From a virus, in IMG/VR virus record IMGVR_UViG_3300028559_000041, positions 1 to 61,620 of that record: DNA of 61,620 bases; one strand, given 5' to 3'. Below, piece by piece: positions 2,100 to 59,372 of this stretch. The position numbers and the translations under genes were made by a program. Numbering within the stretch: position 1 is the first letter of the stretch; each line of letters starts with the position of its first letter. Under the pieces are notes generated by a model. The model was not told the DNA's origin, ran no database searches, and worked only from the letters and a program-made list of their open reading frames with translations.

Positions 2100-3230
2100 A
2101 TGAATTTAGAATTAATTTATATTAAAATATGTGAAAGAGGTCAAATAAGAATACTTGATAAATTAGTATATACTGAAAAACATCATATTATTCCAAGATG
2201 TATGAATGGATTTGATGATAAAACTAACATAACAACTTTGACAGCTAAAGAACATTTTATTTGCCATAAAATATTATGTGAGGTTTATCCAGAAAATGAG
2301 AAGTTGAGATATGCTTTTTGGGCAATGTGTAATCAAAAAGTCAATAGAGATTATATTGTTTCATCTAGAGATTATGAGTATGCTAAATCATTATGTTTAG
2401 AAATGTGGAAAAAACCAAAATCTAAAACTACAATCAATAAAATAAAAGATACAAAAAAACGCAACAAGATTTTAAGACAATTAAAAGGCGAAAAAATCAA
2501 TAGAAAACAAGATGCTGAACTCAATCACAATTATAATAAAAAATGGGTAACGAATATCTTAACAAATAAATCAAAAATGATAATTGGAGATATACCCGAA
2601 GGTTATAAATTAGGCAGAGTTAAAATTGGTAGCTTAGGCAAATCAAATTCAATTGGTAAAAAATGGTATCACAATCCAGAAACAGGTGAAGAAAAATATT
2701 TTAGTGTTGATGATGTTATTCCGAATGGTTGGTTATCTGGTCGTTCTAAACATATAAAATTAGGAGGCAATAATTTATCTGGTAAAATTTGTTACTTTAA
2801 TATTTCTTTGAATAAAGAGAAATATTTTAATAATGATGATGTTATACCTGATGATTGGGTAAAGGGTAAGTTAAAAAATAGATGTTGGTATTATAATAGC
2901 GAATTAAATATTGAAAAGTTATTCGATTTAGATTCGGTAGAATCTGGGTTTATTAGAGGCAGATTGCCTAAATTACCATTTAATGAGGAAATAATAAACT
3001 CAAGTGAATATATAAGAACTTTTAAAAGTGATATAGAAGAAGAATCTCTTATGTGGCATCGTGATTTCGAAGATAGAATAATAGAATCTATTGAAGAAAC
3101 TGATTGGAAATTTCAACTAGATGATAAATTACCAATCAATATAGAAGGTGAAATATTTATACCAAAAGGTGTTTATCACAGAATAATAAAAGGAACTGGT
3201 GATTTAAAAATTAAATTAAATAAACTTTAA
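2100..3230 (+). CDS. HNH homing endonuclease fused to the 3' part of its target gene
   Basis: 376 residues. The N-terminal HNH domain shows YTEKHHIIPRCMNG (residues 24-37), N43 and EHFICH (51-56), the usual phage HNH layout. Three repeats follow with W-Y/F-N-x-E-x-x-E-K-x-F and D-D-V-I-P-x-x-W-x-x-G-R (about residues 195-315), typical DNA-recognition repeats of these enzymes. The last 75 residues are unrelated: they read YIRTF, then WHRDFEDRI, then IPKGVYHRIIKGTGDLKIK, which is most of a small cupin-like phage protein whose broken start lies at 1976. The gene therefore seems to have inserted into that small gene and brought or kept its 3' part in frame. Whether the tail is made as a fusion or from an internal start is not clear. 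Confidence 0.8.
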   Translation: MNLELIYIKICERGQIRILDKLVYTEKHHIIPRCMNGFDDKTNITTLTAKEHFICHKILCEVYPENEKLRYAFWAMCNQKVNRDYIVSSRDYEYAKSLCLEMWKKPKSKTTINKIKDTKKRNKILRQLKGEKINRKQDAELNHNYNKKWVTNILTNKSKMIIGDIPEGYKLGRVKIGSLGKSNSIGKKWYHNPETGEEKYFSVDDVIPNGWLSGRSKHIKLGGNNLSGKICYFNISLNKEKYFNNDDVIPDDWVKGKLKNRCWYYNSELNIEKLFDLDSVESGFIRGRLPKLPFNEEIINSSEYIRTFKSDIEEESLMWHRDFEDRIIESIEETDWKFQLDDKLPINIEGEIFIPKGVYHRIIKGTGDLKIKLNKL

Positions 3231-6466: not shown

Positions 6467-8173
6467 TTAAATAACTTTATAAATCCATTTCTTATTACCC
6501 GCATTATATATCCTATAATAACCCAATTCACTCATAATCTCCTCCTCTGTTTTACTAACATCATAACCCATTTTAATTAATCTCTGCTTTCTCCAGTTGA
6601 ACCTATGATCTCTAATACCATCAATTACATACCAATATCCTGGTTTTGATGTATGTGAGTATTCAAATCCTAAAGTTTGATATAGATTTCCATTTGATAT
6701 TAAATTATCAGAATAGGTCTCTACTTGTATAGGATTATATTTTTTAATAAAATAATTCATCAATTTTGAAGCACCGCCAGTAACACTGGTGTTTATTTTG
6801 TTACAAAATCTAGTCAATTCATAATGTCTTTCTTTTTTTCTATTTTTTTCAATCTTTTGTAATGGAAGCCTTAACTTTGAAAAGGTCATAATACTCAACA
6901 ATTCATCATTATTAAATAATCCAATTCTTATTGATGATTTACAATCTCCCTGTAGGTGATTATTATCTAAAAACGTCTTAGATTCATTGTATGAAACTTC
7001 TCTAATAGAACAATTTCTAGCATATATTTTATTCGAAGTCCTTCCTAATTTATTTAAGATAAAAGATTCACATATCTCTCTATTTACTACCCAATCATCT
7101 TCCCAAATTGTTATTAAACTAATACCATTCAAATTTGATAGTTCATATTTTTTTAAATGATAATTCTCTTTTTTAAATCTCTCAGAATGCCACCAAATGC
7201 CATTAAATTCGAATCCTATTTTTAGATCTGGTAGATAAATATCCATTTCATATGGACTAATTATATTTTTGCAATCTAATATAACTTCACCAATATAATT
7301 CTTAGTAATAAAGTTATATAATTCAATTTGTGATATAGATGCATTATCGGATATCGGAAAACAATTAGTACATATACTAACACCACTATTTGTCCTATAA
7401 TAAAACTGGTAAGTTAATATATCAAAATCTTTTTTACATTCAAGACAATTAAATAACAAACTTGTTGATATTCCTCTTTGAAACTTTATAAATTTAAACT
7501 TATTAAAGTCAATCTTACTCTCTATTCTATCCTTATAAGAAGAATAAAAGAAATCTATTGTTTTATTATGTATATTCTTATCCATCCATGGATGATCTAC
7601 TCCATATTTCTCTAAAGATGTTTTTTTGTATGTTTCTCTATAATTACTTTGTTTAAAGGTTTGTATCCTTTTAAACAGAATATCTTTAGATTCGCTTGGA
7701 TTAGTAACACCATAGTTTCTAAATAGTGTGTCCTTCGATTTTTCCTGTGTTTCTAATAAACACATAGCCGAATTATGACCGTATCTTATCTGGTTTGTCT
7801 TAATAGCCTTATCCTTTACAATTTTTGACTGTGATGGTGACTTTGTTCCAAACCTTTTCAAAGATTTCTCCTCTTTCATCTTAATCATATTTGGATCAGA
7901 TGACACACATCTTCTACTACAATATTCAAGATATCCAATTGTTGAGTTTTTAAAATTTACTTTGTTTTTACAATTTATGTTTTTACAAACAGGTATGTTA
8001 TTTAACTTATTCAAAGCTAAATAAACCTTTTCTTTAAAGGATATGTCTAATAAATTATTATTATCACAATAATCTATTATATAATCATACTCTTCTCTAT
8101 GATTCTTAATCATAAATGGTTCCTTATACATACGACCCGAAGAATCTGGTAAATTAAATATTGATAAATCCAT
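6467..8173 (-). CDS. Vsr-like (PD-D/ExK superfamily) homing endonuclease with acetyltransferase-like C-terminus
   Basis: 568 residues. Residues about 65-215 hold short repeats around R/K-F/Y-G-x-x-x-P/H (for example SLKRFGTKSPSQS, SLEKYGVDHPWM) seen in many phage endonucleases, plus a zinc-type CxxC pair. The nuclease core reads YEMDIYLPDLKIGFEFNG followed by WWHSE, like the Vsr/EDxHD homing enzymes. The last 190 residues (KLRLPL, then YELTRFC, GGASKLMNYF, and LGFEYSHTSKPGYWY) look like a GNAT/Mom-type domain common at the ends of such proteins. It sits between hub and sheath genes and has a TTAATATATA box upstream. Function as a free-standing homing gene is inferred. Confidence 0.7.
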   Translation of the reverse strand: MDLSIFNLPDSSGRMYKEPFMIKNHREEYDYIIDYCDNNNLLDISFKEKVYLALNKLNNIPVCKNINCKNKVNFKNSTIGYLEYCSRRCVSSDPNMIKMKEEKSLKRFGTKSPSQSKIVKDKAIKTNQIRYGHNSAMCLLETQEKSKDTLFRNYGVTNPSESKDILFKRIQTFKQSNYRETYKKTSLEKYGVDHPWMDKNIHNKTIDFFYSSYKDRIESKIDFNKFKFIKFQRGISTSLLFNCLECKKDFDILTYQFYYRTNSGVSICTNCFPISDNASISQIELYNFITKNYIGEVILDCKNIISPYEMDIYLPDLKIGFEFNGIWWHSERFKKENYHLKKYELSNLNGISLITIWEDDWVVNREICESFILNKLGRTSNKIYARNCSIREVSYNESKTFLDNNHLQGDCKSSIRIGLFNNDELLSIMTFSKLRLPLQKIEKNRKKERHYELTRFCNKINTSVTGGASKLMNYFIKKYNPIQVETYSDNLISNGNLYQTLGFEYSHTSKPGYWYVIDGIRDHRFNWRKQRLIKMGYDVSKTEEEIMSELGYYRIYNAGNKKWIYKVI

Positions 8174-8272: not shown

Positions 8273-11200
8273 TTATGAATTAATAAATCCACCGGCTGAA
8301 ATCGCTCCAGTTCTAAGTATTGTGATGTTATTCACGATTATACCCATACCCTTAATTGGTTCAACATAAGTATCAATTACACCTATTTGATTATCAATTA
8401 TCTCAGCCGTGTTATTCTCTTCATCAATCTTGTTGAAGTAATTGAATAGACCACTTTGTGCAACGTATTTTTCACAAATAACATCTGCCGCTAATTTTAT
8501 TGATGCTCTTATCTCAGGAGTATTGTAAGTCCACTGGAAGTCAAGTAACATTCTAGATAATTCTCTCTCAAGTTCAATCAATACTTCTCTAACGTGTATT
8601 AAAGAAAGTGCTGACTTAACAAGTACTTGAGCTGTGTTTTCAGTTTCAATTACGAAACCTCTATTTCTCTTGAATGTCAATGGATTCATTTGAGCTTGAT
8701 TTAAGTATTCAAGATCCGAAGGACTAAATATTTGTTCCAAGTCTAGGATACCAGTGATACGACCATTGTTAACACCAGCAGCGATTGTCCAAGGAGTAAT
8801 ACTAGTTGTAGTACTTGTATGTTTTCTCATAAAAGTTTGTCCTACATAAGCTGCTGGTGGAATCTCAATAATTCTACCAAAATCATCAACTTGTACATAT
8901 GGTAAGAAGTAACCAACAGTCGTAACACCCGCACCTTTACCAAAAGAGTATAGGAAAGAAGGATTACTTTCTGGATCACCACCCAAAGCAACATATTGCA
9001 TTTGAACATTACCACTAGAATCTTTAAATGATGGATTAACTGATGTTTTAAATTGTCTCAATGATGGCATATTTAATATACCAAATGCGTCCAATCTATC
9101 TCCACACAAATCAACTAAGTTTTGTTTAGAATCTGCTGTTAAACCAAGTCCAAAAGAGTCAATTAAATAACGGAAGTCAAATGCTTCTTTATTTGTCATT
9201 GCTTTATAAAGGTTTGTACCTTTTTTAACAACATCAAGTATTGTGTTTTGTCTAACATCAGTACCATCTGGCGCAGATGCTTCTCTAATTCTAAATCCTT
9301 TTAGTGATATAGCCTGGTAAGTACTTACCATATCATCAAGTTTAGTGAATCTAGTAGTTTGTTTATCACCGTTGATTGTCTTTACCTTAATTGATAAATC
9401 ACAAGATATTTCTACATAGTTAGAATCTACTGACCAAACCTTCTTACCTTGTATTCTAGCAAGTTTCTTTGGCATTTCATCTGCTCTAAGTAGAGTTTCA
9501 TCATAACTAGCCTCTAAATAATCACCAACTCTAATTTCACCATATCTTCCTCTTTTTATAAGGATAATATTTGGTTGTTCAACCCATCCAGATGGTGTTT
9601 CAATCTCAACAGTTTGTTTATAGTTACCCATTTGTGATTTTATGTAAAGAGTACCATTTGTTTTGATTCCCTCATTAGCAGAAATAGATCCTAGATATGC
9701 TTGTACTTCTAAAGAAGAATCTGTAAAGTTAACAACTAAATCTCCATTGTCTTTTGTATATCCTCTTAAATATAATGGTTTATCATTATAGTCAGAATCA
9801 TAACCATACACTTTAGCAATCTCAACTGTTTCATCAACAATTGTATTATTAACTTCAAATGCGTAGTAACTAAATGTTCCAGCTACATCTAAAGATTCAA
9901 CAGTACCATTACTATATTGGTTAAGCAAATAAGCTCTACCACCAGCTGACCCACTTGCATCAGCAGGAGTTGTAAGTAGATTAGACGGTACCAAACCTCT
10001 ATCATAGATAGTTGTAAATACACCCTTGTTTAAGGCTCCACCAATTAAGAATTGATAACCAATAACATCTGATGAAAACTCATCCTGTGCAGGAGATCCA
10101 ATTAAATCATTAATCTCAGTAAGGAAGGTATTGTTTTCAGATGCGTAATTTCCAGTCTCATCAACACGGAAAATAATATAGTTATATCCAGCAAGTGATG
10201 CAGTAACACCTTCTCCTTTTATAAACTGTACTTGAACGTTATCATAGATATTATTCTGGAAGAATACATCTTCTGTTGAAATATTACCCTGATCAAACTG
10301 AGTATAGAAAGTTGAATACTTACCAACAACACCCATAGATGATGTTAAACCAGTAACTAATCCAGGAAGTGTATTTTTAGTTTCAAAACCAGCATAGTCA
10401 ATCAAGAACTCATCATCAAGTTTGTAGAATACAAGTTCTCCCTCAGTTACAATAGGAGTGATATCAGCAGATGTTAATCCAGTTCTAACAACAAATGATT
10501 TATTAACTGTTGTTCCAGTTTTAATATCAGTGAACGTTACTTCTGATAAACTCTTTTTAGTAGTTGTCCCCTGTGGATCTAATAACATAAGTCCTTTATA
10601 AGTTGTTGCAGAATTAATATAAGTTAACATTGAATTAAACATTTTAAATATTCTGTACTGCTCATAATTTGTAACATCTGGTGTAGAGTTAGTATCTAAG
10701 AATGTAACAATAAAATCGCCTTCATTAAGTGTTATTTGTGCAGTTGATGCAGTTGAAAATGAATAATCAAAATTAAACTCCATCGGAATGTATGCATCTG
10801 GACCACTACCAACAGTACTATTTATAGTTACTTGAGTGTCACCCGGATTAGAATCAAAAAATCCAGCTGTTAAAGTAGCTTGACCGTAAGCTAAAACTAT
10901 ATCAGTAGCGGCAACTGTTGCCTGTGAAGCAGTAGCGGCTGATATTTTAGCGGTAATAGATCCATTTGAACTAAGTACAAAAGCATAATTGAAAGTTTCT
11001 TGACTTGCAAGATTTGGGAATGAGCTAGATTTTAATTCAACAGAATATGTACCAGATAAAGAAACATAATTTCCACCAATAATAGCATAACCATTATCAG
11101 AAGTTGAATCAACAGTATATGTTCTTATCCAACTTGCAGTACTACTAACAGTATCAAAACTAACTTCATAAAGGTCATTCACATATCCTTCTGCGAACCA

Positions 11201-12469
11201 GTAAGTTCTTTCAGCATTTGCGATGTATCCTAAACTGTCTCCAGATAAAACACCACCAACAGCACCTGATACTCCATCATTATAAGAGTGGTCAAAGTCA
11301 TTATCAATCAATGCTGAAGTACCAGCATTATATCCATCAAATAAAGCAACTACGTTACCTGGTCTATCTAAAACTCTGTTAGAGATAGCAACAGTTTCAG
11401 TAATTTGTTGTTTATAAGATAAGAAGTTAATTGAAATTTCACCATCAGCTGCACTATCATTAACATCTAATGATTGGTAATATGTTGCATCAAGAGATGG
11501 TGGATTAGAAAGTAGGTTATCACTAACCAAACTATTACCAATTAAGTCAAGAAGACCCTTAGGGTAATCAGTTTCAACTAAGTTGTTATTAAATGCACAG
11601 AATAATCCAGTTCTATCAGTATCTCTGTTAATAACTGTTTCAATAAAGATATTTCTACCATTTAAATCTCTAAAATAAGGAATCATTGATGTTCCTTCAT
11701 AATACGCTAATGTAGTAATATTTCTATCATTAGCAAAATTTCTAATTTCTGTCTTTTTAAGACCTGTAGATGAGAAATATCTCATCCATCTTGGATCTGT
11801 TGAAAGTTCTGAATAATTTGTCCAGTCTCCACCAACTACAATAACATCAACTAGATAGTCAGACGCCAAATCAGTAGGATAAACATAAGGAGGCAATTTC
11901 TCTATAGAACCATACCATTCTAGTAGAGCTCTATCGAATCCAGAAACCTGAGATTTAACAACAAATACACTTATGTATCTATCTCCAACATTTGTAAGAT
12001 TCAATACACGCTTAGCATAATCTGTATTTACTGTCGTAAGATCAACAAATGCCTCAGTATCTCTTTTCCAAAAACCAGTTGTGTCAAAAAACTTACGAAA
12101 TGAGTCAGCCCTTTCAATATCATTTTTATACTGTGATGTTGTAGATAAAGATTGATATTCAATTGTATCTAACTCATCGTCAGTTAATAAGAGGTTGACA
12201 GCATATACTGGACCAGCCTCTAACATTTTGGAAATTGTTCTGTGAAAATAAGAACCTTTTCTCTCTAGTTGTCTGTCTAAAGAACCAAAAATAGTCTCAA
12301 GTTCACTAAGATTTGTTAACAACACTGCTGAGTTAACTGGACCTTTTTTAGAAAAACCGATAATCAAGTTTGGCATAGGCCCCACAATAGGAGGACTTGT
12401 TATAATTGACTTATCAATTTCTTCTATGAAGATTCCTGGTCTTTTGTATTTACCGATTTGAATTGCCAT
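8273..12469 (-). CDS. Tail sheath protein, very large (T4 gp18-like)
   Basis: 1398 residues, about twice T4 gp18 (659). The N-terminus MAIQIGKYKRPGIFIEEID then IGFSKKGPVN is the classic sheath start (P-G-x-x-x-x-E). The C-terminal 300 residues carry the conserved sheath core: RNRGFVIETENTA, an L-x-H-x-R-x-x-x-x-I-E stretch of helices, and VNNITILRT near the end. Between them are several hundred residues of Ser/Thr/Val-rich beta-type sequence, probably surface domains added to the core. The sheath contracts to drive the tube through the envelope. It shares a 16-base upstream box with the tube gene. Confidence 0.9.
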   Translation of the reverse strand: MAIQIGKYKRPGIFIEEIDKSIITSPPIVGPMPNLIIGFSKKGPVNSAVLLTNLSELETIFGSLDRQLERKGSYFHRTISKMLEAGPVYAVNLLLTDDELDTIEYQSLSTTSQYKNDIERADSFRKFFDTTGFWKRDTEAFVDLTTVNTDYAKRVLNLTNVGDRYISVFVVKSQVSGFDRALLEWYGSIEKLPPYVYPTDLASDYLVDVIVVGGDWTNYSELSTDPRWMRYFSSTGLKKTEIRNFANDRNITTLAYYEGTSMIPYFRDLNGRNIFIETVINRDTDRTGLFCAFNNNLVETDYPKGLLDLIGNSLVSDNLLSNPPSLDATYYQSLDVNDSAADGEISINFLSYKQQITETVAISNRVLDRPGNVVALFDGYNAGTSALIDNDFDHSYNDGVSGAVGGVLSGDSLGYIANAERTYWFAEGYVNDLYEVSFDTVSSTASWIRTYTVDSTSDNGYAIIGGNYVSLSGTYSVELKSSSFPNLASQETFNYAFVLSSNGSITAKISAATASQATVAATDIVLAYGQATLTAGFFDSNPGDTQVTINSTVGSGPDAYIPMEFNFDYSFSTASTAQITLNEGDFIVTFLDTNSTPDVTNYEQYRIFKMFNSMLTYINSATTYKGLMLLDPQGTTTKKSLSEVTFTDIKTGTTVNKSFVVRTGLTSADITPIVTEGELVFYKLDDEFLIDYAGFETKNTLPGLVTGLTSSMGVVGKYSTFYTQFDQGNISTEDVFFQNNIYDNVQVQFIKGEGVTASLAGYNYIIFRVDETGNYASENNTFLTEINDLIGSPAQDEFSSDVIGYQFLIGGALNKGVFTTIYDRGLVPSNLLTTPADASGSAGGRAYLLNQYSNGTVESLDVAGTFSYYAFEVNNTIVDETVEIAKVYGYDSDYNDKPLYLRGYTKDNGDLVVNFTDSSLEVQAYLGSISANEGIKTNGTLYIKSQMGNYKQTVEIETPSGWVEQPNIILIKRGRYGEIRVGDYLEASYDETLLRADEMPKKLARIQGKKVWSVDSNYVEISCDLSIKVKTINGDKQTTRFTKLDDMVSTYQAISLKGFRIREASAPDGTDVRQNTILDVVKKGTNLYKAMTNKEAFDFRYLIDSFGLGLTADSKQNLVDLCGDRLDAFGILNMPSLRQFKTSVNPSFKDSSGNVQMQYVALGGDPESNPSFLYSFGKGAGVTTVGYFLPYVQVDDFGRIIEIPPAAYVGQTFMRKHTSTTTSITPWTIAAGVNNGRITGILDLEQIFSPSDLEYLNQAQMNPLTFKRNRGFVIETENTAQVLVKSALSLIHVREVLIELERELSRMLLDFQWTYNTPEIRASIKLAADVICEKYVAQSGLFNYFNKIDEENNTAEIIDNQIGVIDTYVEPIKGMGIIVNNITILRTGAISAGGFINS

Positions 12470-19407: not shown

Positions 19408-21525
19408 ATGTCAAGACAAATAATTTGGACAACTAAAATGGTTGAGGAAGCGACTGATAAACTGAGTAATGGATTTTTACTAAAAAGAGTAGAGAATCCA
19501 TTTTTCGAAAATGTTATAGGTCTAAGATCATCTGGTCTAACTTTTAAAATGTCCAATGATGAACAGGAAGAATATATTAAATGCGCACTAGATATTCATT
19601 ATTTCGCTAGAACATACTGTTACATCAAAGGAGAAGAAGGACAACCAATAATAATACCACTAAGAGATTATCAAAATGAAATATTAGATAACTTCTTTAA
19701 TAATAGATTTAATATACTAATGGCTAGTAGACAGATTGGTAAAACAATTTGTTCATCAATAATGATGTTACACTATGTTCTTTTTAATAATAATAAAAAT
19801 GTATTAGTAACAGCTAATAAATTAGACACAGCGGTTGAAGTATTAGATAAAATAAGAGAAATATATCAAAGACTTCCATTTTTCCTTCAACAAGGAATAA
19901 TAAACTGGAACCAAAAATTTATGGTTTTTGATAATAAGAGCAGAATTAAAGGATTCGCAACAACAAAGACATCATCAATAGGTCAAACTGCTGACTTTTT
20001 ATATTTAGATGAGTTTGCTTATCTACCAGATAATATTGCAGATAAATTTTACAAATCGGTATTTCCAACCGTATCAAACATAGAAAATTCTAAAATTATT
20101 ATAACATCAACACCTAATGGATTTAATCTATTTCATAGGTTATTAAGTGATGCTGAAAAACCAGAAGATGAGAAATCATCATATTGTGCCAAAAGAGTTT
20201 ATTGGTGGCAAGTTCCGAAGAGGTTCTCTACTTATATTAGATTAAATCCTAAAAAAGTAGAAGAATATGAAATAAACAGAGATGAATTACTTAATTACTT
20301 AATTGAAAAATATCCAAAAAATGAACATTCTCTAAAATATAATAACGAATTAAAAAAGTGGGTAATAACGACCTTAAATAATAGTGATTGCACTGAGGAA
20401 AATATTTTATCAGAAAGCTTTAATGGAATTAGATTATTAGAATTCGCAGATATAACCACTTGGAAAAAAGAAACTATCAAGGACATAGGAGGCGAAGAAG
20501 CATTTAATCAGGAATATGATTTGAGATTTATAAACTCATCAAGAAGTCTTCTAAGCGAAACGTTGATTGATAAAATGACAAAAAATAAAAAGACATATGA
20601 ATGGGAACCTCTAGACGAGTTTGAAAAACTTAAATTCTCATATCAAGACTTAAAATGGATAAAAGATGATGAAGTATATCTACCGATTCAAAGAAAAACT
20701 CAAAAAATTATTATATCAGTTGATGTTGCTGAAGGATTAGGTCAAGACTACTCAATAATTAACATATTTAAAATTGATGTAAAATCTAAAGAACTAATTG
20801 AACAACAAAAACATAAATATAAATCTATTGTCGATTTCTTCAGATTGGAACAAATAGGGATGTATAGAAATAATCTAGTATCTGTACAACAACTATCAGA
20901 AGTACTATACATACTAGCATTTGAATACTTTAATCCAGATAATGTGAAGATTGTACTTGAGATTAACGCATATGGAAATGAACTACTAGCTCATTTACCT
21001 CAAGTATTTGATGGTCGGAATGATTATGGTTCATCTATATTCTTTAGATTCAAACACAGAGCAGATGCTACAGAAGAAAAAATAGGACTTAAAGTCGGTG
21101 AGAATAAAAACCTACTAGTTAAAGAGTATCAAGATAAGATGGAAGACCAGTCAATTATAATAACAAATGAGGTCAATATTAATGAGATAACAACTTTTAT
21201 AAAACACACAACAAATGCCGGAAATACTAGATATGCTGCAGATGGATCATCACATGATGATACAGTTATGACGATTGTAGATATGTGTGCTATTTTTCAA
21301 AAAAATGATTTCAAACAAATAGTAGAAGAATATGCTGAAACAATTATAGACAAATCTCTATTTAACTATATAAATGATACAATAAATACATTGGAATATG
21401 TTGAACCTGTTAATTACTCACAACTTTTAGAAATTAGGAGGAAAAATAAAATACAATATAAATATAAGAGTGATATAATACAAAAAAATATAGATAATCC
21501 ATTCAAAAATAATAACTTTTTATGA
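19408..21525 (+). CDS. Large terminase subunit (T4 gp17-like)
   Basis: 705 residues. The ATPase domain has a Walker A variant ASRQIGKT (residues 106-113), Walker B with catalytic Glu LYLDEFA (198-204) and coupling motif TSTPNG (233-238). The RNase-H-like nuclease domain shows SVDVAEGLGQD (about 437-447), LEINAYG (about 519-525) and SHDDTVM (about 614-620), the three acidic metal sites. It pumps DNA into the prohead and cuts the concatemer. Its stop overlaps the next ATG (ATGA), so the 21522 gene is coupled to it. Confidence 0.93.
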   Translation: MSRQIIWTTKMVEEATDKLSNGFLLKRVENPFFENVIGLRSSGLTFKMSNDEQEEYIKCALDIHYFARTYCYIKGEEGQPIIIPLRDYQNEILDNFFNNRFNILMASRQIGKTICSSIMMLHYVLFNNNKNVLVTANKLDTAVEVLDKIREIYQRLPFFLQQGIINWNQKFMVFDNKSRIKGFATTKTSSIGQTADFLYLDEFAYLPDNIADKFYKSVFPTVSNIENSKIIITSTPNGFNLFHRLLSDAEKPEDEKSSYCAKRVYWWQVPKRFSTYIRLNPKKVEEYEINRDELLNYLIEKYPKNEHSLKYNNELKKWVITTLNNSDCTEENILSESFNGIRLLEFADITTWKKETIKDIGGEEAFNQEYDLRFINSSRSLLSETLIDKMTKNKKTYEWEPLDEFEKLKFSYQDLKWIKDDEVYLPIQRKTQKIIISVDVAEGLGQDYSIINIFKIDVKSKELIEQQKHKYKSIVDFFRLEQIGMYRNNLVSVQQLSEVLYILAFEYFNPDNVKIVLEINAYGNELLAHLPQVFDGRNDYGSSIFFRFKHRADATEEKIGLKVGENKNLLVKEYQDKMEDQSIIITNEVNINEITTFIKHTTNAGNTRYAADGSSHDDTVMTIVDMCAIFQKNDFKQIVEEYAETIIDKSLFNYINDTINTLEYVEPVNYSQLLEIRRKNKIQYKYKSDIIQKNIDNPFKNNNFL

Positions 21526-22367
21526 AAAAAATAGAAATAATACAAAACGTTGAAGAGAGTAAAGATATAGAATTGGTCAAATTGACCGAATATCAACTAT
21601 TAGATCTAATTAATAAGGATGGTCTAATGGAAGTTTTAACAAACTACGAAGTTCCTGAGGATTTTATACTAAAATGGGGTACTGGTGACTCTGAATTTAA
21701 TGGTATTGATAAATCGTTAGTCATATCAATAATGAATCTTTCAGAAGATTTTATAAAAGCTGCTCTAATTAGTGAGTATTTTAATCTTGATGATATTTCC
21801 GAATTAAATATGATCACATATTCTGGTTTAACAGAAGAATTTATCAATGAATATGAAAGTTATATAAATTGGAGTAGAATGATATTATACCTATCATCTT
21901 CTGATAAAATTGAAAATATTGAAAAATTTGAATCAATTATTGAAAAGAACAATCTATGGAATCTTATAAGTGCGAATCCACTACCAATAGATTTTATAAG
22001 GAAAAATAAAGGAAAAATTGACTGGAAGATAGCATCTATTGTAAATAAATTCACAGAGGATGAAAGGACCGAATTCAATGATCTAATTATCAAATACACT
22101 GATGTAGTTCCATTAAATGATTTAACAGAAGAAGTATATACAGTAAGTGATATTAGAAAATTAATAAAATTATCAAATCTTAATCAAGATCGGGACATCA
22201 CTGTGAGCAGTACTGAAGATCTAAAATCTAAACTAGATAGAGTAAATAAAGTAGAAGAAGAGAATTTAAGATTTGAGGTAAAACATAAAATTGAAAGATT
22301 AACGAGAGAAGATCTCTTAAAGATTAAGGAAACTATAAGACAATCTGAAACAAAAAAGTCCTCATAA
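21522..22367 (+). CDS. Unknown protein coupled to terminase
   Basis: 281 residues, very acidic. The middle has several loosely repeated units of the type L-x-x-x-F-I-x-x-x-x-x-x-I-x-W (LSEDFIKAAL, LTEEFINEYESYINW, LPIDFIRKNKGKIDW). This resembles repeat sequences in other large-phage proteins of unknown role. A charged coiled coil closes the protein (residues 230-275). Translational coupling to terminase suggests a packaging or head-associated job, but no family is recognised. Confidence 0.65.
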   Translation: MKKIEIIQNVEESKDIELVKLTEYQLLDLINKDGLMEVLTNYEVPEDFILKWGTGDSEFNGIDKSLVISIMNLSEDFIKAALISEYFNLDDISELNMITYSGLTEEFINEYESYINWSRMILYLSSSDKIENIEKFESIIEKNNLWNLISANPLPIDFIRKNKGKIDWKIASIVNKFTEDERTEFNDLIIKYTDVVPLNDLTEEVYTVSDIRKLIKLSNLNQDRDITVSSTEDLKSKLDRVNKVEEENLRFEVKHKIERLTREDLLKIKETIRQSETKKSS

Positions 22368-22379
22368 GAGGACTTTTTT
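22352..22379. terminator. Bidirectional terminator between terminase operon and ClpS-like gene
   Basis: Stem AAAAAAGTCCTC (22352-22363) with GAGGACTTTTTT (22368-22379), loop ATAA. It includes the last codons of the 21522 gene. Confidence 0.85.
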
Positions 22380-22380
22380 G

Positions 22381-22662
22381 TTAGTTAGCTTCCATTGTAA
22401 CCGATAATCCGGCATCTCTTAGCTTATCTTTCATAGTTGAGATTGTCTCAAGATCCCCATACTTAACATCACACTCGCCTTTAAAGTGAACAATATGAGC
22501 GCATTGGTTCGCTTGCTCGAATTCATGTCCACATATTTTAACTAGACAAGTTATTACCCAATCGAATGAATTGTAATCATCATCTGATAAAATTAACCTC
22601 CAGGGTTGAGACAAAATATGTTCAACTTCTGATTTTGTTTTCTTTTTTGTAATTGTGTTCAT
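22381..22662 (-). CDS. clpS-like: ClpS-like adaptor of the Clp protease
   Basis: 93 residues. After a flexible 18-residue N-terminus it follows the ClpS core throughout: PWRLILSDDDYNSFDWV (residues 20-36), CLVKICGHEFEQANQCA (39-55), IVHFKGECDV (57-66) and L-x-x-x-GLSVTME at the end. The acidic DDDY (27-30) and H59 match the residues of E. coli ClpS that hold the alpha-amino group of N-degron substrates. ClpS hands such substrates to ClpA/ClpC for degradation. The spelling, especially VKICGH-x-x-E-Q-A-x-Q-C-A and VH-x-K-G, is close to Bacteroidota ClpS, so it was probably taken from a host. It overlaps the upstream endonuclease stop by four bases. Confidence 0.8.
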   Translation of the reverse strand: MNTITKKKTKSEVEHILSQPWRLILSDDDYNSFDWVITCLVKICGHEFEQANQCAHIVHFKGECDVKYGDLETISTMKDKLRDAGLSVTMEAN

Positions 22663-23558
22663 AAAATAGATTTTATTTGTGTTAATTTTTTATTATTTAA
22701 TATTAGTAAGTTTATATTATTTTTTTCAAGAAAGTTTTTCTTAATATTATCTCTATATATTTGATTGTAATAGACCTTATCTCCTCCCCAACATTCAATA
22801 GACTTATAATGTTGCACACCATGAACTTCGATTATCAGATTTTTTTCCGGAAGATAGAAATCAAATCTTAATTTTCTATTCGTTTTTGGGTTTACTAAGC
22901 CTTCAAAAGTTTTTTCACGAATATATTTTATATTTTTTTCATCAAGATATTTTAGAATATAATTTTCAGCGTACTTTAGATCAGTATTGGAACAATAAGG
23001 ACAACCTCTCTGACCATGTATGAAGGAATTCATAGACTTAAGATGTATTCTTTTACAGATGTTATGTCTGATGGACACTTTAGAATTACAATTACTCACC
23101 TCTTCTAATATTGTATAATCGTCGCACCAAATTTCTTTACATCTATAAATCCAATACTGATGTGATTTATGAGAATATTTGGAACAGGATTTACAAGCAT
23201 TTTTATGGTTAATATGGTTATTCATTGTCATTTCCAAGATAAGTCCACATTTCTTGTGGATAACCTGTACTTTATGTTTACTATTTTTTGGTTCATTTAA
23301 AATTTCAAATTCATAATTGTGAGTATCATCACTTAATTTTTGCCACTCTTGTTTTGTCTTCTTTTTCTTATTGTTACAATAGACACAGTATCTTTTGAGG
23401 TGGTTATTCAATCTTATTTGTAGAACTTTTTCACATTTCTTATGAAGAACTTTCACAATATGTTGACCACTCTGTGGATCTTCCAATATTTCAAATTCGG
23501 AATTATATTTCAAGTCACTCTCAATTTGCCACTCATATCTTGTTTTTCTTTTTGACAT
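22659..23558 (-). CDS. Zinc-ribbon / PD-(D/E)xK endonuclease, probable homing type
   Basis: 299 residues. Three or four repeats of about 65 residues each start with a W-x-x-x-x-x and hold H-K-K-C and CxxC zinc-ribbon halves (RYCVYCNNKKK, CKSCSKYSH, CPYCSN). The C-terminal nuclease shows FDFYLPEKNLIIEVHGVQHY with a preceding E in YAENYILKYL, the D-x(n)-E-x-x of PD-(D/E)xK enzymes. The same nuclease type ends the 40929 gene. It sits between ClpS and the HAD gene with its own TTAATATATA box. Confidence 0.7.
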   Translation of the reverse strand: MSKRKTRYEWQIESDLKYNSEFEILEDPQSGQHIVKVLHKKCEKVLQIRLNNHLKRYCVYCNNKKKKTKQEWQKLSDDTHNYEFEILNEPKNSKHKVQVIHKKCGLILEMTMNNHINHKNACKSCSKYSHKSHQYWIYRCKEIWCDDYTILEEVSNCNSKVSIRHNICKRIHLKSMNSFIHGQRGCPYCSNTDLKYAENYILKYLDEKNIKYIREKTFEGLVNPKTNRKLRFDFYLPEKNLIIEVHGVQHYKSIECWGGDKVYYNQIYRDNIKKNFLEKNNINLLILNNKKLTQIKSIL

Positions 23559-23602: not shown

Positions 23603-24112
23603 TTAATTATTATATATTTTTTGTGTTTTGTTTACTACATCAATGATGATAATTTGACAATTTTGTGTTGTTGCCCAATCTCCAAATTTATCCAAATGTT
23701 CTTGTCTATCATCATACATAACGAATGAATTTGGTTTGTGTACCTTTATAAGATTCTCAAAAAGTCGTTTTTTAAATAAAAAAGTATCCATACCTGGATT
23801 ACAATGTACTTCATCAAACTCTAACTCATATAAATCCAATACCTTCTGAACATCCTTTTTCAATTTATTTAAACGACCAGTTGCTAAAACAACATACGAG
23901 TCTTTGTCTGATAGATGTTCTAAATAATCAGTATAAACTTCTGTATTTAGTGGAATTTGAAAAACATCCAAATCAAGTGATTCTCCTCTACCCCACCAAC
24001 CTGGATATGGCCATTCACCACCCGTCTTATTTTTAAATACCACCTTACCAGATTCTGGTTCGGGAGTATAACACATCGTGCCATCAAAATCAAATGATAC
24101 TACTTTTTTCAT
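23603..24112 (-). CDS. HAD-family phosphatase (Swiss-army-knife RNA-repair-like)
   Basis: 169 residues from the ATG at 24112 (an in-frame TTG lies directly before it). Motif I is SFDFDGTMCYTP (D7, D9), motif II is VLATGRLNK, and motif IV is VMYDDRQEHL, all in HAD order. The D-D-R-x-x-H/E ending of motif IV is typical of the HAD domains in RNA-repair-like phage proteins. It probably hydrolyses a phosphomonoester; the substrate, perhaps a nucleic acid end or nucleotide, cannot be told from the sequence. Confidence 0.75.
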   Translation of the reverse strand: MKKVVSFDFDGTMCYTPEPESGKVVFKNKTGGEWPYPGWWGRGESLDLDVFQIPLNTEVYTDYLEHLSDKDSYVVLATGRLNKLKKDVQKVLDLYELEFDEVHCNPGMDTFLFKKRLFENLIKVHKPNSFVMYDDRQEHLDKFGDWATTQNCQIIIIDVVNKTQKIYNN

Positions 24113-24184
24113 CAAAGAGATAATTTATTAAGATATATATATATATATTATATACAAATATATCAAAAAAAATAATACAAACAA

Positions 24185-25168: not shown

Positions 25169-25747
25169 ATGAAGCATCTAAGAAAATTTGAAAAACACAG
25201 AAACTTGAGAAAATCATCCGGTGAAGTAAAAAATCCCGTTAATGAGTCAGTTCTACAAGTTAATGATATCTACAAAGTAAGAGTTTTGGTAGATGTTCCA
25301 CAATCACTAGTTAATTCTTATGTGAAGAAAGCAAAAGATGAGTTAGGTAAAAACGTTCGTCAATTTTACGGAGACATGGATATAGCTGAAGAATTGGTTA
25401 AAAACGTCGTAATGGCAGGACTAACAATAGATACTATACCAGCAACTTCTTTAGTTGGTGGAGAGGCACAAACACAGGCTCAAGGACAATCTCAACCTCA
25501 GGTTCAAGTAGAGCCGCAAGCACAGCCGCAAGCACAGCCGCAAGCACAGCCGCAAGCACAGCCTCAAGCACAGCCGCAAGCACAGCCGCAAGCACAGGCA
25601 CAACCTCAAGGACAATCTCAACCTCAAGTTCAAGTAGAAGCACAGCCGCAAGGTGAAGGAGAATATGAAGAGGTTGGTGATGAAGATGAAGAAAAAGAAG
25701 AGGGTCAAGAAGAAGAAGAAACTGGCGAAGAAGAACTTCCGATTTAA
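25169..25747 (+). CDS. Tagged protein with Gln-Ala-Pro repeat
   Basis: 192 residues starting MKHLRKFEKHRNLRKS, a tag variant. Residues 30-90 form a compact domain of unknown type. Residues 95-160 are a low-complexity Q-A-Q-P repeat, and the end is a run of Glu and Asp. Such flexible tails are common in virion proteins. Upstream TATAATATATAACTAATAAA may be its promoter. Function unknown. Confidence 0.7.
   Translation: MKHLRKFEKHRNLRKSSGEVKNPVNESVLQVNDIYKVRVLVDVPQSLVNSYVKKAKDELGKNVRQFYGDMDIAEELVKNVVMAGLTIDTIPATSLVGGEAQTQAQGQSQPQVQVEPQAQPQAQPQAQPQAQPQAQPQAQPQAQAQPQGQSQPQVQVEAQPQGEGEYEEVGDEDEEKEEGQEEEETGEEELPI
25511..25605 (+). repeat. 12-base tandem repeat encoding QAQP
   Basis: About seven copies of cagccgcaagca with few changes. 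It is much more GC-rich than its surroundings and probably expands and shrinks by slippage. Confidence 0.9.
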
Positions 25748-26453: not shown

Positions 26454-27071
26454 ATGAGATTCATTAAGACATTTGAAAATTACGAACAGTCCGATATATT
26501 AATAATCATTGACGTCCAGAAATCATTTAAGAAATTCTTTACTGAGATGTATATAAATCAGTTAACTAAGTATTGTAATAACTTTAATGAAGTATATCAA
26601 ATATGGGACAATCACATAGACGGTAAAAATGTAGATAAGGACTATCTATATGATGATGAACCGGAAATTCCTATACATGATGACTTATATCATTTTCCAA
26701 ATCAAAAAGATATCATAGAAAAAAGATATAACTATGATGTAGATGCTGATTTCTATAAGAAAATATTAGACAAAGAAGTTTATGACAAGATAAGTGATAT
26801 GGAAGAATCTAAATCATTAAAAAAAGGTGATATATTTCCAACAAAAGAGGGAACCGTTATAACATATATTGGAAACAAACACGTTTGGTTTCACTGTCCT
26901 AAAAAACTTTATGAATTACTAAATAGTTTAAAGGGTAAAAACATCAAAATAGTAGGTGGTTCTGACTCAGAATGTTTAGAAGATGTCTTCACATTGGCTG
27001 AAAAAATAGGTTTAAATATTAAAAGAGACCACAGATATATCTGGTCAGCAAATCATTGCCCAATAAAATGA
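26454..27071 (+). CDS. Tagged isochorismatase-like cysteine hydrolase
   Basis: 205 residues starting MRFIKTFENYEQSD, the shared tag, running straight into DILIIIDVQKSFKKFF. D20 with the following V-Q is the catalytic Asp strand of the isochorismatase/nicotinamidase fold. Near the C-terminus IKIVGGSDSECLEDV with C173 fits the catalytic Cys helix, followed by A-x-x-x-G-L-N-I. A central insertion rich in Asp and Glu is unlike nicotinamidase, so the substrate is open. The family includes enzymes that hydrolyse amides such as nicotinamide. It is coupled to the next gene by ATGA. Confidence in the fold is moderate. Confidence 0.55.
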   Translation: MRFIKTFENYEQSDILIIIDVQKSFKKFFTEMYINQLTKYCNNFNEVYQIWDNHIDGKNVDKDYLYDDEPEIPIHDDLYHFPNQKDIIEKRYNYDVDADFYKKILDKEVYDKISDMEESKSLKKGDIFPTKEGTVITYIGNKHVWFHCPKKLYELLNSLKGKNIKIVGGSDSECLEDVFTLAEKIGLNIKRDHRYIWSANHCPIK

Positions 27072-31250: not shown

Positions 31251-34200
31251 TTAACTAAAATCGAACCAAGATCCCTTATCTTCTTTTGGTTTGATACTTT
31301 CAATATATTCCATCAAGGTACCTTTAGATCCAACAACACTAGCAATATCAGCCATAATTGTAACTAATTTATCCATAGTCGCTTTTGATTGATTATCAGT
31401 GGCAGCTTTACTTACATCTGTACCACTTGATGGTCTGTTTACTGAACCCATACTAACAACACCAGTAGAACGAACACTACCAGATGATGATGGTGCTGAT
31501 GGTGCTGATGATTTGGTCTTAGAATCATTTATTAATCCATTAAATACTTGAGATTTAGATTCTAATTTTGACATCATAGTCTCAAATTGATTTGGATCCA
31601 TCATAGATAATAAAACAACATTACTGGTTAGAGTTCTTATAGACTCTAGTTTTTTAGCATCTATAACATCAACACTTTTAGTAAATCTATCTATTGCTAT
31701 ACCAAGTCTATCAAAAGCTCTTGTTAATAAATCGATATTACCAATAGCTGAAATAATACCAGTATTCTTACCTATACCAGATCCTAAATTTTTGAAATCT
31801 AATAATTTGAGTATATTTCCAAATTTAGACAGAGCTACTATAGTACCGTTTGCCCAACTAACAGTTGGAAACTTTGTCCAATTTCCTGATTTAAATCTAG
31901 AATCAACAAATAACATTAGGTCAATTACTTTAGCTATTTTATTTTTCTCTGTCTCCTCATCTTTAGGAAATAAATAATCCATCATACTACTGTTGAATTT
32001 CAAATTCATGAATCCCTGTAATGCTTTAGGAACACCCGACGCCCAATCAAGACTCGGAAAAGATGTATATTTACCCATTGATAAATATCCTGATATAGCT
32101 GATATTGTTTTTGAAATGTTAAGTATCTTCAATAATCCAGTATTAAGACTCGATAGACCATATTTTTTATCAACAGACATTGATAATTCACCAAATCTAT
32201 TTACTAACAATTCAGTTGCTTCTATCCAAGATAATTCTGGATATTTAGAATATTTTCCAGATGATATCTTATTAGAAACATCTACTATATTTTTAATAAT
32301 AGTACTAATTTTAAAAGATCCTAGTAATAATCCTTCTGTAGTGAAAGATTTATTAACAGACATAATCAAAGATCCATACTTCATAATAGACTTTGATATA
32401 TTATCAATCCAGGATGTTGGTGGATAATCTTTATATCTACCTAATTCTACCAATTTATCTATCTTTAATATAGAAATTGTTAAATTTTCAATTTTTTTAC
32501 TATCGGATAGGTTGGTCTTACCACCTATAATCTTTATAAGATCAGCAAATTTACTTAATGTTTTGGAAGTAGAATCTATCCAATTATCTGGTATCTCAGC
32601 AAATTTAATTTTTGATAAACTAAATGACAATTTTTGAAGTTGATTTGGTAATAGATATACTTTAATCATATCCTTATTGGTAATAGATCTAACCTTTTTA
32701 ACAATAGATGTAATACTATCAATAGCCTTTTCAAAACTTGACATGTAATCTTTCGGCATACTAACATCATATTTACCAGTTGATATAATATTAGAAATGT
32801 CTCTAATATTATTAGCTAAAGATAACATCGTAGCAAATTTATTTACAGGTTCTTCAATATCAGATGTTTTATTCAATAATTTAACGAAACTTGAAATTAG
32901 ACTAGTTGATTCCTTTTCATATTTCAAAAACTTAGTCTCATACTTACCAGCTGATAGAATAATGGATACTTGTTTAATATTCATAGATAAATCTTCCAAA
33001 GTGGTAAATTTCTTCTTGGCGTCTTCCAAATCAGATAATTTATCATATAAACTTAAAAAACTTGAAATCAACTTAGTTGCGGATTTATCAAATTCAAAAA
33101 ATTTAGTATCATATAAACCAGTTGCTAAAGTGTCGGATACACTTTTAATACCTTTAGCAATTTCAACAACTGCAATATTCTTCTCCTTGATAACATCAAC
33201 ATCAGTCTCCAAATCATCATTGTTAAATAAATCTATAAACTGTTTGTAAATCACACTAATAGATTTACCCCATTTAGCATCTATCTCATATCCATAATTA
33301 CCACCAAATAATGTTGTAGATGCGTCCTTTATTGCTAAGGCAATATCTTTAATTGCAGATTTTAACTTTTGAGCTGCCTCTCCCGCGTCTGAAAACCAAC
33401 CTGAATTTTCACTAAGATATTGGAAAACAGGTGAGAAGGCACTAATCGCCTGACCAACATTTTGACCCCACTCAGCACTAGGTACCTTGCTAAGATCAAA
33501 AACTGCATCCTTTGAAGCTGCTCCGAAAACACCAGCTGCCTCAATTATACCGCCAGAAATCGTAACAATTGCTTCTTTAAATGCCGCAATCGGAGGACCA
33601 CTACCGAAAAGACTTGTTGTTTCAGAAACCGCAGTGAAGACTGGAGCGAATGCTGCTATTGCTTGACCTACACCCTTCGCCCATGTTTCACTAGGACCTC
33701 CTTTCCAAATATCCTTAGCAGCTCCCAAATTTATGGCAGCCGTTGCTAAACCACCAGCGATAACTTCTATAGCTGAACTGAACTCTGTGACTGATACTCC
33801 TAAATCTACAGCCTTTCCTGATCCACCAAATAACTTTCCTATTTTACCAACAATTTTCCCTCCCAGGTTCATTACTTTTTGCTTTTGAAGCATATTATAG
33901 ACTTCAGAAAAAGCACCAATAGCTAACCCTACACTTTTGGCCCATTCTTCTTTTGGACCTCCTTCAAATTTAACACCTCCTAGGGTAGTAGCGGCAGTAG
34001 CTATACCAGTAGATATAGATCCTATAGCTGATGAAAAAGCTTCGACAGTGACACCTAGATCTTTACTAAAAAAGCTCATGATTTTAGATTTCTCCATCAT
34101 ATCATATACTATGGAGAAAGCGCCAATTGCAATACCTACACTTTTAGCCCAAGCTTCTGTTGGACCACCTGTAAAGTTACCACTTGATAATTCATCACCA

Positions 34201-37200
34201 GCTATTTTTATTGCTTCTGATATACTTCTTATCGAAGCAGTGAATGTTTCTCCACCAACTTTTCCACCAGTAAACAAACTCAGTATTTGAGAACTCATCA
34301 TCATTTTATAAACACTTGAAAAAGATCCAAGTGCTAATCCAATACCTTTTGACCATTCAACTTTCGGACCACCAGTATATGAACCAGTACTCAAAATTGT
34401 ATCAGCATCTACTATTGACTGTGAAATATCCTTAATCGCATCAATTCCAGCCTTGATTGGATTTTTAACCAATCCAAAAGTAATACCCTCAAGTGCTCCA
34501 CCTCCTGAACTAATTGCACCTAGTGTCACAACGGCAGTACCAAAAAGAAGTAGAGTTTTAGCAACTCCTGAGATCCATTGATCTGTTGGAAAGTTACCAT
34601 AATCACCATCCGCTAAAATTGAACTTGTTTCAACTATAATACCGGATATTTTTCTCACCGCATCTATACCAGCATCTATAGGATTTTTAACCAATCCGAA
34701 TGTTATACCCTCAAGAAGACCACCACCAGCTGAGATAGCACCTAATGTAACAACGGCAGTACCAAAAAGAAGTAGAGTTTTAGCAACTGAACCTATCCAG
34801 TCATTGGAAGGAAAAGTCGTATATGACCCACTTGATAATATTTTATCTGTGGCAACAATAGTGGCAGCAAGACCTAGAATAGCCAAAGCACCAAGTGCCA
34901 TAGCACCAGCGGCTAAACCACCAGTAGCCAAGATCAACTCACCTATTGCTAATGAAGCAACTCCGAATGCCACCAATGTTAGTCCAACTCCTAGTGACCA
35001 ACCGACAGTAGGATATTTACTATAATCACCCATAGACAATATTTGACTAGTGAGTGCAATAGCGGCTCCTAAAACGACAATAGCAACAGCTCCTATGAGG
35101 AACTCCTTTACACCAATTTTCTTGATCAAAAATCCAAGACCACCCGCAACTAATCCAAAGACACTAATTGTAAATGCGGTAGATAGTGTCCATATAGCTT
35201 CTGGAAATTTACTATAATCGCCCATAGATAGTATTTGAGAAGTCAATGCGATCGTTATTGCTAAGGCAACTATAACAAGAGAAGCCTTAATCATATCTTT
35301 TTGAGAAATATTTTTGGTTATCTTTGTTATAGCTAATGCAACAGCCGCTAATGAAACTAACACTAATGATAATTTGATAAACGAACCAAATTGTGAATTT
35401 GATATATTCGGTATTAATTTTATAAGTAATGATGCTGCAAGAATACCAACAGCCATTGCGACTAGAATTAACCCACCTTTTACCATATCTTTAGCTGATA
35501 TTCCTCTAGTATTCTTCACAATAAATTTAACAGCAAATGACAGAGCTACAAAGATTATAGAAATCATTATTGATGCAAAAAATTGTTGTAATCCAATTGG
35601 CTTAACATTACGAATAAATTGAGATGACTCCATTATTGCATATGACATCGCAATGAGTATTATTGGAGCAAATATTGCCGCTTTGGTTATATCAACCAAA
35701 CTTATTTTATCAAGTGCCTTGACAATTTGTTTAATTCCAAAAGAAAGTACAACAAAAACAAGAGATATAACAACTGATGCGAAAAATTGTTGAAAACCAA
35801 CTGGTTTAACATTACGAATGAATTCTGATGATTTCATTATCGCATATGAAATACCTATAAGTATTATAGGACCAATGATCGCAAAGGCAAGTGCCTCCAT
35901 TGGACTTATTTTATCAAAGGCTTTCAACATTTTTCCAAGACCAAATCCAACCAGGGCGAAAACTCCAGCAATAACAATAGAACTGAATGCCTGTTGGAAT
36001 CCGATAGGCTTAACATTACGAATGAAGTCTGATGACTTCATTATAGCATATGAAACTCCAATGAGAACAATTGGCATAAGAGCGGCTGCTACCAGAGCAG
36101 CAACTGGACTAATTCCTTTAAAAGCACCAATTAATTTTCCAAGACTCAATGAGATAATAGCAAATGTTGCAGCGATAACAATTGTTGAGAAAGCTTGTTG
36201 AAATCCAATTGGCTTAACATTACGAATGAAGTCTGATGACTTCATTATAGCATATGAAACGGCAACTAAAACAATAGGCATTAAAAGTGCTGCAATTACT
36301 GCAGTAACAGGACTTATCTTACCCAAGGCACCAATCAGTTTTCCCATCTGTGTAGATATGATGGCAAAAGCACCAGCAATAACAATTGTTGAGAAAGCTT
36401 GAGCCATTCCTATTGGCTTAACCTTAGATAGTATAAAAGATGTAAGAAGAATAGCACCCGCCATTATTACAAGAGACAATGAAACCATTGCCATCTCTCT
36501 TGGTGTAGTTTTAACCTTCGATATTTTCTCAAAAGCAATTGCAACTAAAGGTAAAGCAACTGCCAAGGCAAGTACAGAAGCAACATTAATACCACCAACT
36601 ATTTTAAATGCTAATCCAATCGCAACTATACCAACTGCCATCAATAATAACAATTTAACACCGTCTCCTATTGCCTTCTTCTGTTCTTCAGAAAATAATC
36701 CCTTCTTCTTTTTTTCTTCACCTTCTTTAGAAACAGTCTCAACACTAGGTCTAGACATATCTTTCGCAGCCGATTTTTTAACATCAGGTGATTTAGATCT
36801 AGAATCCTTTATATCAGCCGGACCTTTAGCCGCTTTTCTTCGACCAATAACTGTAGCTGCAGAGTTAGATCCCAATAATTCGGATCCATCGCCAAATGAA
36901 ACAATAGCAACCGGAATAACTGGTAATCCAGACCATGAACCTCCCTTAGCAGGAGGATTCATAGCAGGTGGAGATCCAGGCGGAGTAGTTGGTCTGACTA
37001 TACTTGTCGTGACTGCTGGTCTAACTGGACCAACTGGAGTGGAACCAACTGGAGTGGATGGACCAACTGGAGTAATAGGACTACCTGGAACGATAGGAGA
37101 TACAGTTGGAGTAGGTGGTCTAACTATACTTGTTGTGACTGCTGGTCTAATTGAACTAGCTGGAGTAATAGGACTAGCTGGTGTGATAGGACTAGCTGGT

Positions 37201-40115: not shown

Positions 40116-40162
40116 CAAAATTAACTTTAATTTACAAAGTATATATAAATTATGTTAACATC

Positions 40163-51787: not shown

Positions 51788-52396
51788 ATGAAAATAATAT
51801 GTATTTACTCTATAAAAAATATGGAAAATGAAAAGATATATATCGGTAGTTCAGTTGATTTCAATAGAAGGAAAAGAGTGCATTTAAATTTACTTTTTAA
51901 AAATAAACATCACTCAATAAAGCTTCAAAATAGTTTTAATAAACATGGATTTGATAAATTTCATTTTAGTATTTTAGAAATGGTTGACAGTATCGATTTA
52001 TTAATAGAAATTGAGCAAAAATATTTAACAAAACTTAAACCGGATTTAAATATGACACATATAGCTGGATTAAACTCACATATCGGCTTAAAAAGGAGTG
52101 AAACAACTAAAGAGAAAATAAGATTGTCAAATACTGGAAAATTAACATCAGAAGAGACTAAAGAAAAACTTAGACAACATAACTTAGGAAAAAAACAAAG
52201 TAAGGAGACAAAAGATAAAAAGGCAAAAGCACTTTACAAACCAATTATACAAATCAAAAATGATGGAGAAACGATTGAATGGGAGAGTGCAACAGTTGCA
52301 TCCAATGTATTAGGTATAAGTAGAAGAGTAATATATGCGTGTCTTTGGGGCACAAAAAAGACCTATAAAAAAAGTAAATGGATTTATAAAAAATAA
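51788..52396 (+). CDS. GIY-YIG homing endonuclease
   Basis: 202 residues. Nuclease domain: CIYSIKN (residues 5-11), KIYIGSS (16-22), R27/R30, and the catalytic Glu in IEIEQKYL (about 74-81). Two NUMOD3-type pieces follow (G-L-K-R-S-E-T-T-K-E-K, L-T-S-E-E-T-K-E-K), then a NUMOD1-type DNA-binding domain (SATVASNVLGISRRVIYACL) and the end KTYKKSKWIYKK. It is inserted between the 51343 gene and the NAD salvage operon, which starts four bases after its stop. Confidence 0.93.
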   Translation: MKIICIYSIKNMENEKIYIGSSVDFNRRKRVHLNLLFKNKHHSIKLQNSFNKHGFDKFHFSILEMVDSIDLLIEIEQKYLTKLKPDLNMTHIAGLNSHIGLKRSETTKEKIRLSNTGKLTSEETKEKLRQHNLGKKQSKETKDKKAKALYKPIIQIKNDGETIEWESATVASNVLGISRRVIYACLWGTKKTYKKSKWIYKK

Positions 52397-52400
52397 AAAA

Positions 52401-54424: not shown

Positions 54425-54431
54425 TAAACAT

Positions 54432-59353: not shown

Positions 59354-59372
59354 AAACAAACTAAATTTTCTT

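Follow-up and report, generated by a model that had tools for sequence, protein, structure and literature searches.

The clpS gene and its product

The window analysed here is a linear virus record of 61,620 bases from IMG/VR (IMGVR_UViG_3300028559_000041), a fragment of a phage genome that does not include clpC. An earlier note, made from the sequence alone, had described an open reading frame of 93 amino acids at positions 22381–22662 as a ClpS-like adaptor of the Bacteroidota type. Its coordinates and length were correct, but the strand had to be changed: the gene is located on the minus strand and is read from an ATG start at 22662 down to 22381, and the plus strand over the same interval is full of stops. 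The gene and its surroundings comprise the following features.

19408–21525, plus strand: terminase large subunit gene (terL), assigned by domain/PHROG match and synteny; marks the conserved cassette
21522–22367, plus strand: gene for a 281-aa protein (phrog_3532), between terL and clpS
22348–22385, minus strand: RNA hairpin followed by a U-run, terminator-like, directly after the clpS stop and between the convergent clpS and 281-aa genes
22381–22662, minus strand: clpS-like gene, 93 aa, stop codon at 22381–22383; N-terminal extension, residues 1–20; core, residues 21–93; pocket residues D27 (N elsewhere), D28, D29, N31, F33 and H59
22659–23558, minus strand: HNH/homing-type endonuclease gene (phrog_559, 3.7e-47), an insertion that separates the HAD gene from clpS
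23603–24115, minus strand: HAD-family (HAD_SAK_1) phosphatase-like gene, assigned by Pfam; upstream cassette partner of clpS

The product of the clpS gene matches the Pfam ClpS family (PF02617) with an E-value of 1.4e-15 and a score of 57.3 bits, which passes the gathering cut-off of 23, and PHROG 27368, annotated as ‘ATP-dependent protease’. The cut-offs of the NCBIfam ClpS equivalog models were not reached (best score 37.6 bits against 117, with no Bacteroidota control sequence scored alongside). These models look to be built on subsets of orthologues, and the shortfall bears on strict equivalence within such subsets, not on membership of the ClpS family. An AlphaFold2 model, for which 64 sequences from the window, phages and bacteria were used, has a predicted local distance difference test score of 78 overall and of 82–89 across most of the core, the first 15 residues being of low confidence. 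When this model was used as a Foldseek query, ranks 1–28 were all ClpS chains, complexes with N-degron peptides included, with template modelling scores (by target) of up to 0.94. The VIA-align superposition on a ClpS structure gave a Z of 15.9 and a root-mean-square deviation of 0.8 over 76 residues. The next fold in the Foldseek list, well behind ClpS, is the C-terminal domain of L7/L12. An L7/L12-like identity of the protein was considered and rejected, since the similarity is limited to the fold and both sequence and tree are those of ClpS.

The N-degron pocket consists of an Asn-Asp-Asp stretch and a His (residues 34–36 and 66 in E. coli), from which D28, D29 and H59 are kept in the window protein. 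According to residue counts made with custom scripts over 48 phage and 80 bacterial ClpS sequences, D28, D29, N31, F33 and H59 are invariant, and H46, Q53 and G62 likewise vary little or not at all among phage and host proteins. The Asn preceding the two pocket Asp residues is found in 47 of the 48 phage and all 80 bacterial sequences; the window copy alone carries an Asp at this position (Asp27, codon 22582–22584). It is because of this replacement that the earlier note read the motif as ‘DDDY’, and the residues it listed together with H59 are indeed present (D28, D29, Y30, N31 and H59). Several phage invariants, K42, D65, Y68 and S75, differ from the usual host residue, as does K80, which is present in 46 of 48 phage sequences. 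Residues 64–70, S75 and K80 form a phage-specific invariant patch. The N-terminal extension of the phage proteins carries a conserved L17 and P20, similar in position to the proline junction of E. coli ClpS.

Relatives, ancestry and the conserved cassette

A scan of IMG/VR with the window ClpS returned 105 relatives, and therefore an open reading frame arising by chance can be excluded; 80 of them, with 71–82% identity, were kept. Among annotated phage records the only matches were LR745206 (635 kb), LR756502 (642 kb) and LR756504 (636 kb). The ClpS proteins of the first two share 72–76% identity with the window copy and that of the third 37%.

A tree of 159 sequences places the phage ClpS proteins encoded next to terL in one group (SH-aLRT 96), nested within Bacteroidota ClpS. 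The phylogeny proposed as a check in the earlier note thus places the window protein inside ClpS, among Bacteroidota sequences. The nearest bacterial neighbours of the phage group are two sequences from uncultured Chitinophagales (L109 and L110). With more divergent phage copies added, both fall within the phage group (22 phage and two bacterial rows, support 99/89), and a phage clade without them is neither favoured nor rejected (p-AU 0.48), the 93 alignment columns being too few to settle the direction of transfer at this point. These two ClpS genes (L109:2501–2785 and L110:2501–2788) are located on contigs of Chitinophagales-like metagenome-assembled genomes, and their neighbour genes look bacterial. 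They may represent either the donor lineage or a back-transfer. The locus and sequence of the LR756504 ClpS suggested a separate origin; a clade uniting all phage copies was, however, not rejected (p-AU 0.15). Family model, fold and tree agree that the window gene encodes a ClpS of the Bacteroidota type, as the earlier note had claimed. We propose that the phage gene was captured from Bacteroidota. The protein is predicted most likely to bind N-terminal Leu, Phe, Tyr and Trp as well as the N-domain of ClpA/ClpC.

The phage clpS genes are under purifying selection, with a median ratio of nonsynonymous to synonymous substitution rates (dN/dS) of 0.12 over the 65 usable of 406 pairs; the comparisons are pairwise and non-independent, and with synonymous sites near saturation only measurable dS values were used. 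Nearly all loci of the relatives share the order HAD gene, clpS, terL. In most of them clpS begins 8–94 bases downstream of the HAD gene, and it is convergent with terL. The endonuclease gene, whose stop overlaps the clpS start in the window (ATGA), is missing from this position in most relatives and occupies the same place in three (L030, L042 and L045). By PHROGs it is one of three homing/HNH endonuclease genes of the window (2100–3230, 6467–8173 and 22659–23558). The gene for the 281-aa protein occurs at the same place in five relatives (L002, L004, L019, L027 and L033). The hairpin 3′ of clpS has a folding energy of −20.7 kcal/mol (z −7.9) and is absent from the list of the consensus scanner. 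A consensus promoter scan found no more sites than in shuffled sequence.

Clp ATPases and ClpP of the ClpS-bearing phages

ClpP is encoded in 10 of the 14 ClpS-bearing records, in two or three copies in each of the three records of 635–642 kb, and the full-length copies, read by eye, contain the S/H/D motifs. A Clp ATPase with two AAA modules (648–709 residues) is encoded in the three large genomes and in one contig of 263 kb. The enzymes from LR745206, LR756502 and this contig (3300032321_002024) share 62–68% identity with Bacteroidota ClpC. They lack its first ~145 residues, which correspond to the two Clp_N repeats, and start at the acidic linker. The linker, both AAA modules and the UVR-type middle region are kept, and Pfam finds AAA, lid, UVR, AAA_2 and D2-small domains and no Clp_N. 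The pore loops KYR and GYVG are retained, and all four phage sequences compared carry the VGF form of the ClpP-binding IGL/VGF loop in D2. The ATPase of LR756504 is more distant (42–46%) and begins at the first AAA module too. This phage also encodes a ClpX-like ATPase of 385 aa (L102:5588–6745) that has no zinc-binding domain, the part of ClpX on which adaptors dock, a trimming akin to that of the phage ClpC.

No Clp_N was detected anywhere in the 14 ClpS-bearing records or in five further ClpS-bearing contigs, although outside the three large genomes these are contig fragments, in which an absence is weak evidence. The same search was positive in five of seven proteobacterial jumbo phages with ClpS and in all nine Bacteroidota genomes. 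An annotation artefact can be rejected as the source of the short enzymes: the frames upstream are closed, and six-frame searches show no remnant of Clp_N.

Over 80 viral ClpC loci the length of the N-terminal part is bimodal. In the ClpC tree, with group labels assigned by custom scripts, the viral enzymes grouping with Bacteroidota ClpC all lack the N-domain and the other viral enzymes have it; the exceptions, L305 and L309, are N-domain-less sequences at contig edges and were discounted. Since one viral ClpC (L263) groups with that of Fluviicola, apart from the remaining viral sequences (support 99), the N-domain has probably been lost more than once in viruses. Among contigs found through their ClpC, ClpS was encoded in five of 21 with the N-domain-less enzyme against none of 13 with the domain, and in four of the six N-domain-less contigs of at least 340 kb. 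Taken with the three largest relatives, several long contigs thus combine ClpS with a ClpC-type ATPase, in most cases accompanied by ClpP. As a test of co-occurrence the count has the right direction, but it was set aside as the contigs are too few, fragmentary and phylogenetically confounded. On the bacterial side, 146 of 148 Bacteroidota genomes encode ClpS, and a host from this phylum should therefore possess a working ClpS partner.

Proposed role and comparison with known systems

ClpS docks on the N-domain of ClpA and turns the protease away from ssrA-type substrates towards those with N-degrons (PMC9663308), and Leptospira ClpA without its N-domain is unaffected by ClpS (PMC12493166). 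We propose, with moderate confidence and from comparative sequence data, that the phage protein is a functional, host-derived ClpS adaptor which acts through the ClpC of the host and leaves the phage ClpCP outside its control. It appears to be aimed at host ClpC because the phage ClpC has lost the docking domain while the host enzyme is intact. The phage ClpS would bind N-degron proteins in its pocket and dock on the N-terminal domain of host ClpC. Host ClpCP would thereby favour N-degron substrates over its other targets during infection. The phage ClpC-ClpP machine, having no docking domain, would stay outside this control. The earlier note had offered two outcomes, that host proteins are degraded or that phage proteins are shielded; we favour a switch that would do both. 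Its suggestion that the adaptor acts on the host Clp machine gains indirect support from the relatives’ Clp ATPases, which lack the ClpS-docking N-domain. We infer that the phage of the window has the same ClpC and ClpP as its relatives; the docking on the host enzyme, the way in which host proteolysis would change and the substrates are proposals as well. L/F-transferase was considered as a phage source of N-degrons and rejected, being encoded in none of eight phage records and in three of nine Bacteroidota genomes.

A more far-reaching version of this proposal is put forward only tentatively. According to it, ClpS, ClpC and ClpP were all captured from hosts and the phage’s own ClpC was trimmed more than once, so that ClpS would reprogramme only the host protease and the phage ClpCP would be immune to adaptors.

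Three points weigh against the action through host ClpC. Residues ~65–80 of ClpS, which correspond to the stretch that meets ClpA in E. coli, are largely invariant in phages and differ from host ClpS (D65, Y68 and S75); with this host-divergent surface patch, the partner of the phage protein may be a different one. The pore loops of E. coli grip the ClpS extension, and those kept in the N-domain-less phage ClpC may allow it to engage ClpS. The Bacteroidota host is itself deduced, on the basis of the tree and of hosts predicted in the literature for genomes of this size class.

In the strongest alternative, the phage ClpS would serve the phage ClpC-ClpP: the N-terminal extension would enter the ClpC channel and another surface would replace the N-domain. 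The presence of ClpS, N-domain-less ClpC and ClpP in the same phages, the intact KYR and GYVG loops and the invariant patch of residues 64–70, S75 and K80 fit this arrangement, for which proteobacterial jumbo phages with ClpS and their own N-domain ClpA provide a precedent. The indifference of the N-domain-less Leptospira ClpA to ClpS (PMC12493166) speaks against it, as do several phages with N-domain-less ClpC in which no ClpS was found and whose ATPase therefore seems ClpS-independent. We regard it as unlikely, though worth weighing. Still less probable is an inhibitor, which would block the N-domain of host ClpC or outcompete host ClpS and so spare phage proteins, with N-degron delivery being secondary. 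A phage-encoded ClpC would escape such inhibition; however, the pocket and the delivery extension are both conserved, beyond the needs of a pure competitor.

Proteins with a shared N-terminal tag, such as MKYLKLFENF or MRFIKTFENY, are encoded in the window (25169–25747, 26454–27071, 58621–58986 and 58991–59359) and in LR745206 and LR756502. The earlier note had linked ClpS to such payload proteins, whose N-termini would be exposed by the prohead protease and which ClpS would then protect or handle. The tags exist, and clpS shares a cassette with terL, but cleavage after the Glu of the tag would expose N, K or S and not L, F, W or Y, and none of the three is a known ClpS ligand. The cleavage sites being assumed, this is a weak counter-indication; clpS is also read in the direction opposite to that of terL and is followed by a terminator-like hairpin of its own, and we consider the link very improbable. 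Equally improbable is that clpS is a passenger with no function under selection, or that its product uses the ClpS-like fold in another, for instance L7/L12-like, role. The L7/L12 domain as the next listed fold could be cited in favour; the dN/dS of 0.12, a sequence and tree within ClpS and the invariant pocket residues speak against it.

For a virus whose infection is long and complex, regulated proteolysis is an obvious point of attack. Sequence seldom reveals which machine a phage adaptor serves; in this case, the phage ATPase lacks the docking domain, and this yields a testable prediction, namely that the adaptor addresses the host protease and not that of the phage. The viral enzymes would also supply a natural set of N-domain-less ClpC proteins for studying the role of the N-domain, and the phage ClpS would add an N-degron adaptor from Bacteroidota.

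Elsewhere in the window, polyphosphate kinase 2 (PPK2) and an NAD-salvage-like set (cytidyltransferase/NUDIX protein and nicotinamide phosphoribosyltransferase) are encoded at 49043–50194 and 52335–55871. The tail sheath protein (8273–12469) is unusually long (1398 aa) and has its sheath domain in the C-terminal part. An open reading frame of 2955 aa extends over 31251–40118.

Phage-borne ClpS is already known. Iyer et al. (2021) named ClpS in jumbo phages (AMM43882.1, phage CBB) and proposed it as an adaptor to host ClpAP (PMC7824862), and in Agrobacterium phage Atu_ph07 it is among seven Clp-like proteins (PMC6102473). In the literature covered by the searches, nothing turned up on phage ClpC, on an action of phage ClpS on N-degrons or on the N-end rule in Bacteroidota, and we found no description of the ClpS family in Bacteroidota megaphages, of the cassette with terL or of the pairing with N-domain-less ClpC. 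A proteobacterial-type ClpS query matched 31 phage records, two of which, from Acinetobacter, look bacterial. One of them, Acinetobacter phage MD-2021a (L330, CAKLQF020000008.1), was rejected since its argC-clpS-clpA locus is bacterial chromosome in a phage record.

Phage ClpS shares its fold, pocket, length and NDD-x-N-T/S-F-D signature with Bacteroidota ClpS (PF02617), the closest being the uncultured Chitinophagales proteins L109 and L110 with 52% identity. It differs from them in its own invariants (K42, D65, Y68, S75 and, in 46 of 48, K80), in a less acidic extension with L17 and P20 and in being encoded within a phage cassette. Proteobacterial jumbo phages (CBB AMM43882.1, GAP32, PA5oct, XbC2, Vibrio 2.275.O and Atu_ph07) likewise carry ClpS and Clp ATPases. 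Their ClpS is, however, of a separate proteobacterial type that was not recovered with the window protein as query, and five of the seven such phages tested have a Clp ATPase with Clp_N, whereas the Bacteroidota megaphages have none. With the E. coli ClpS-ClpA-ClpP system the adaptor, the pocket and the docking logic are alike (PMC9663308); the E. coli partner ATPase has the N-domain, and the ATPase of the Bacteroidota megaphages lacks it.
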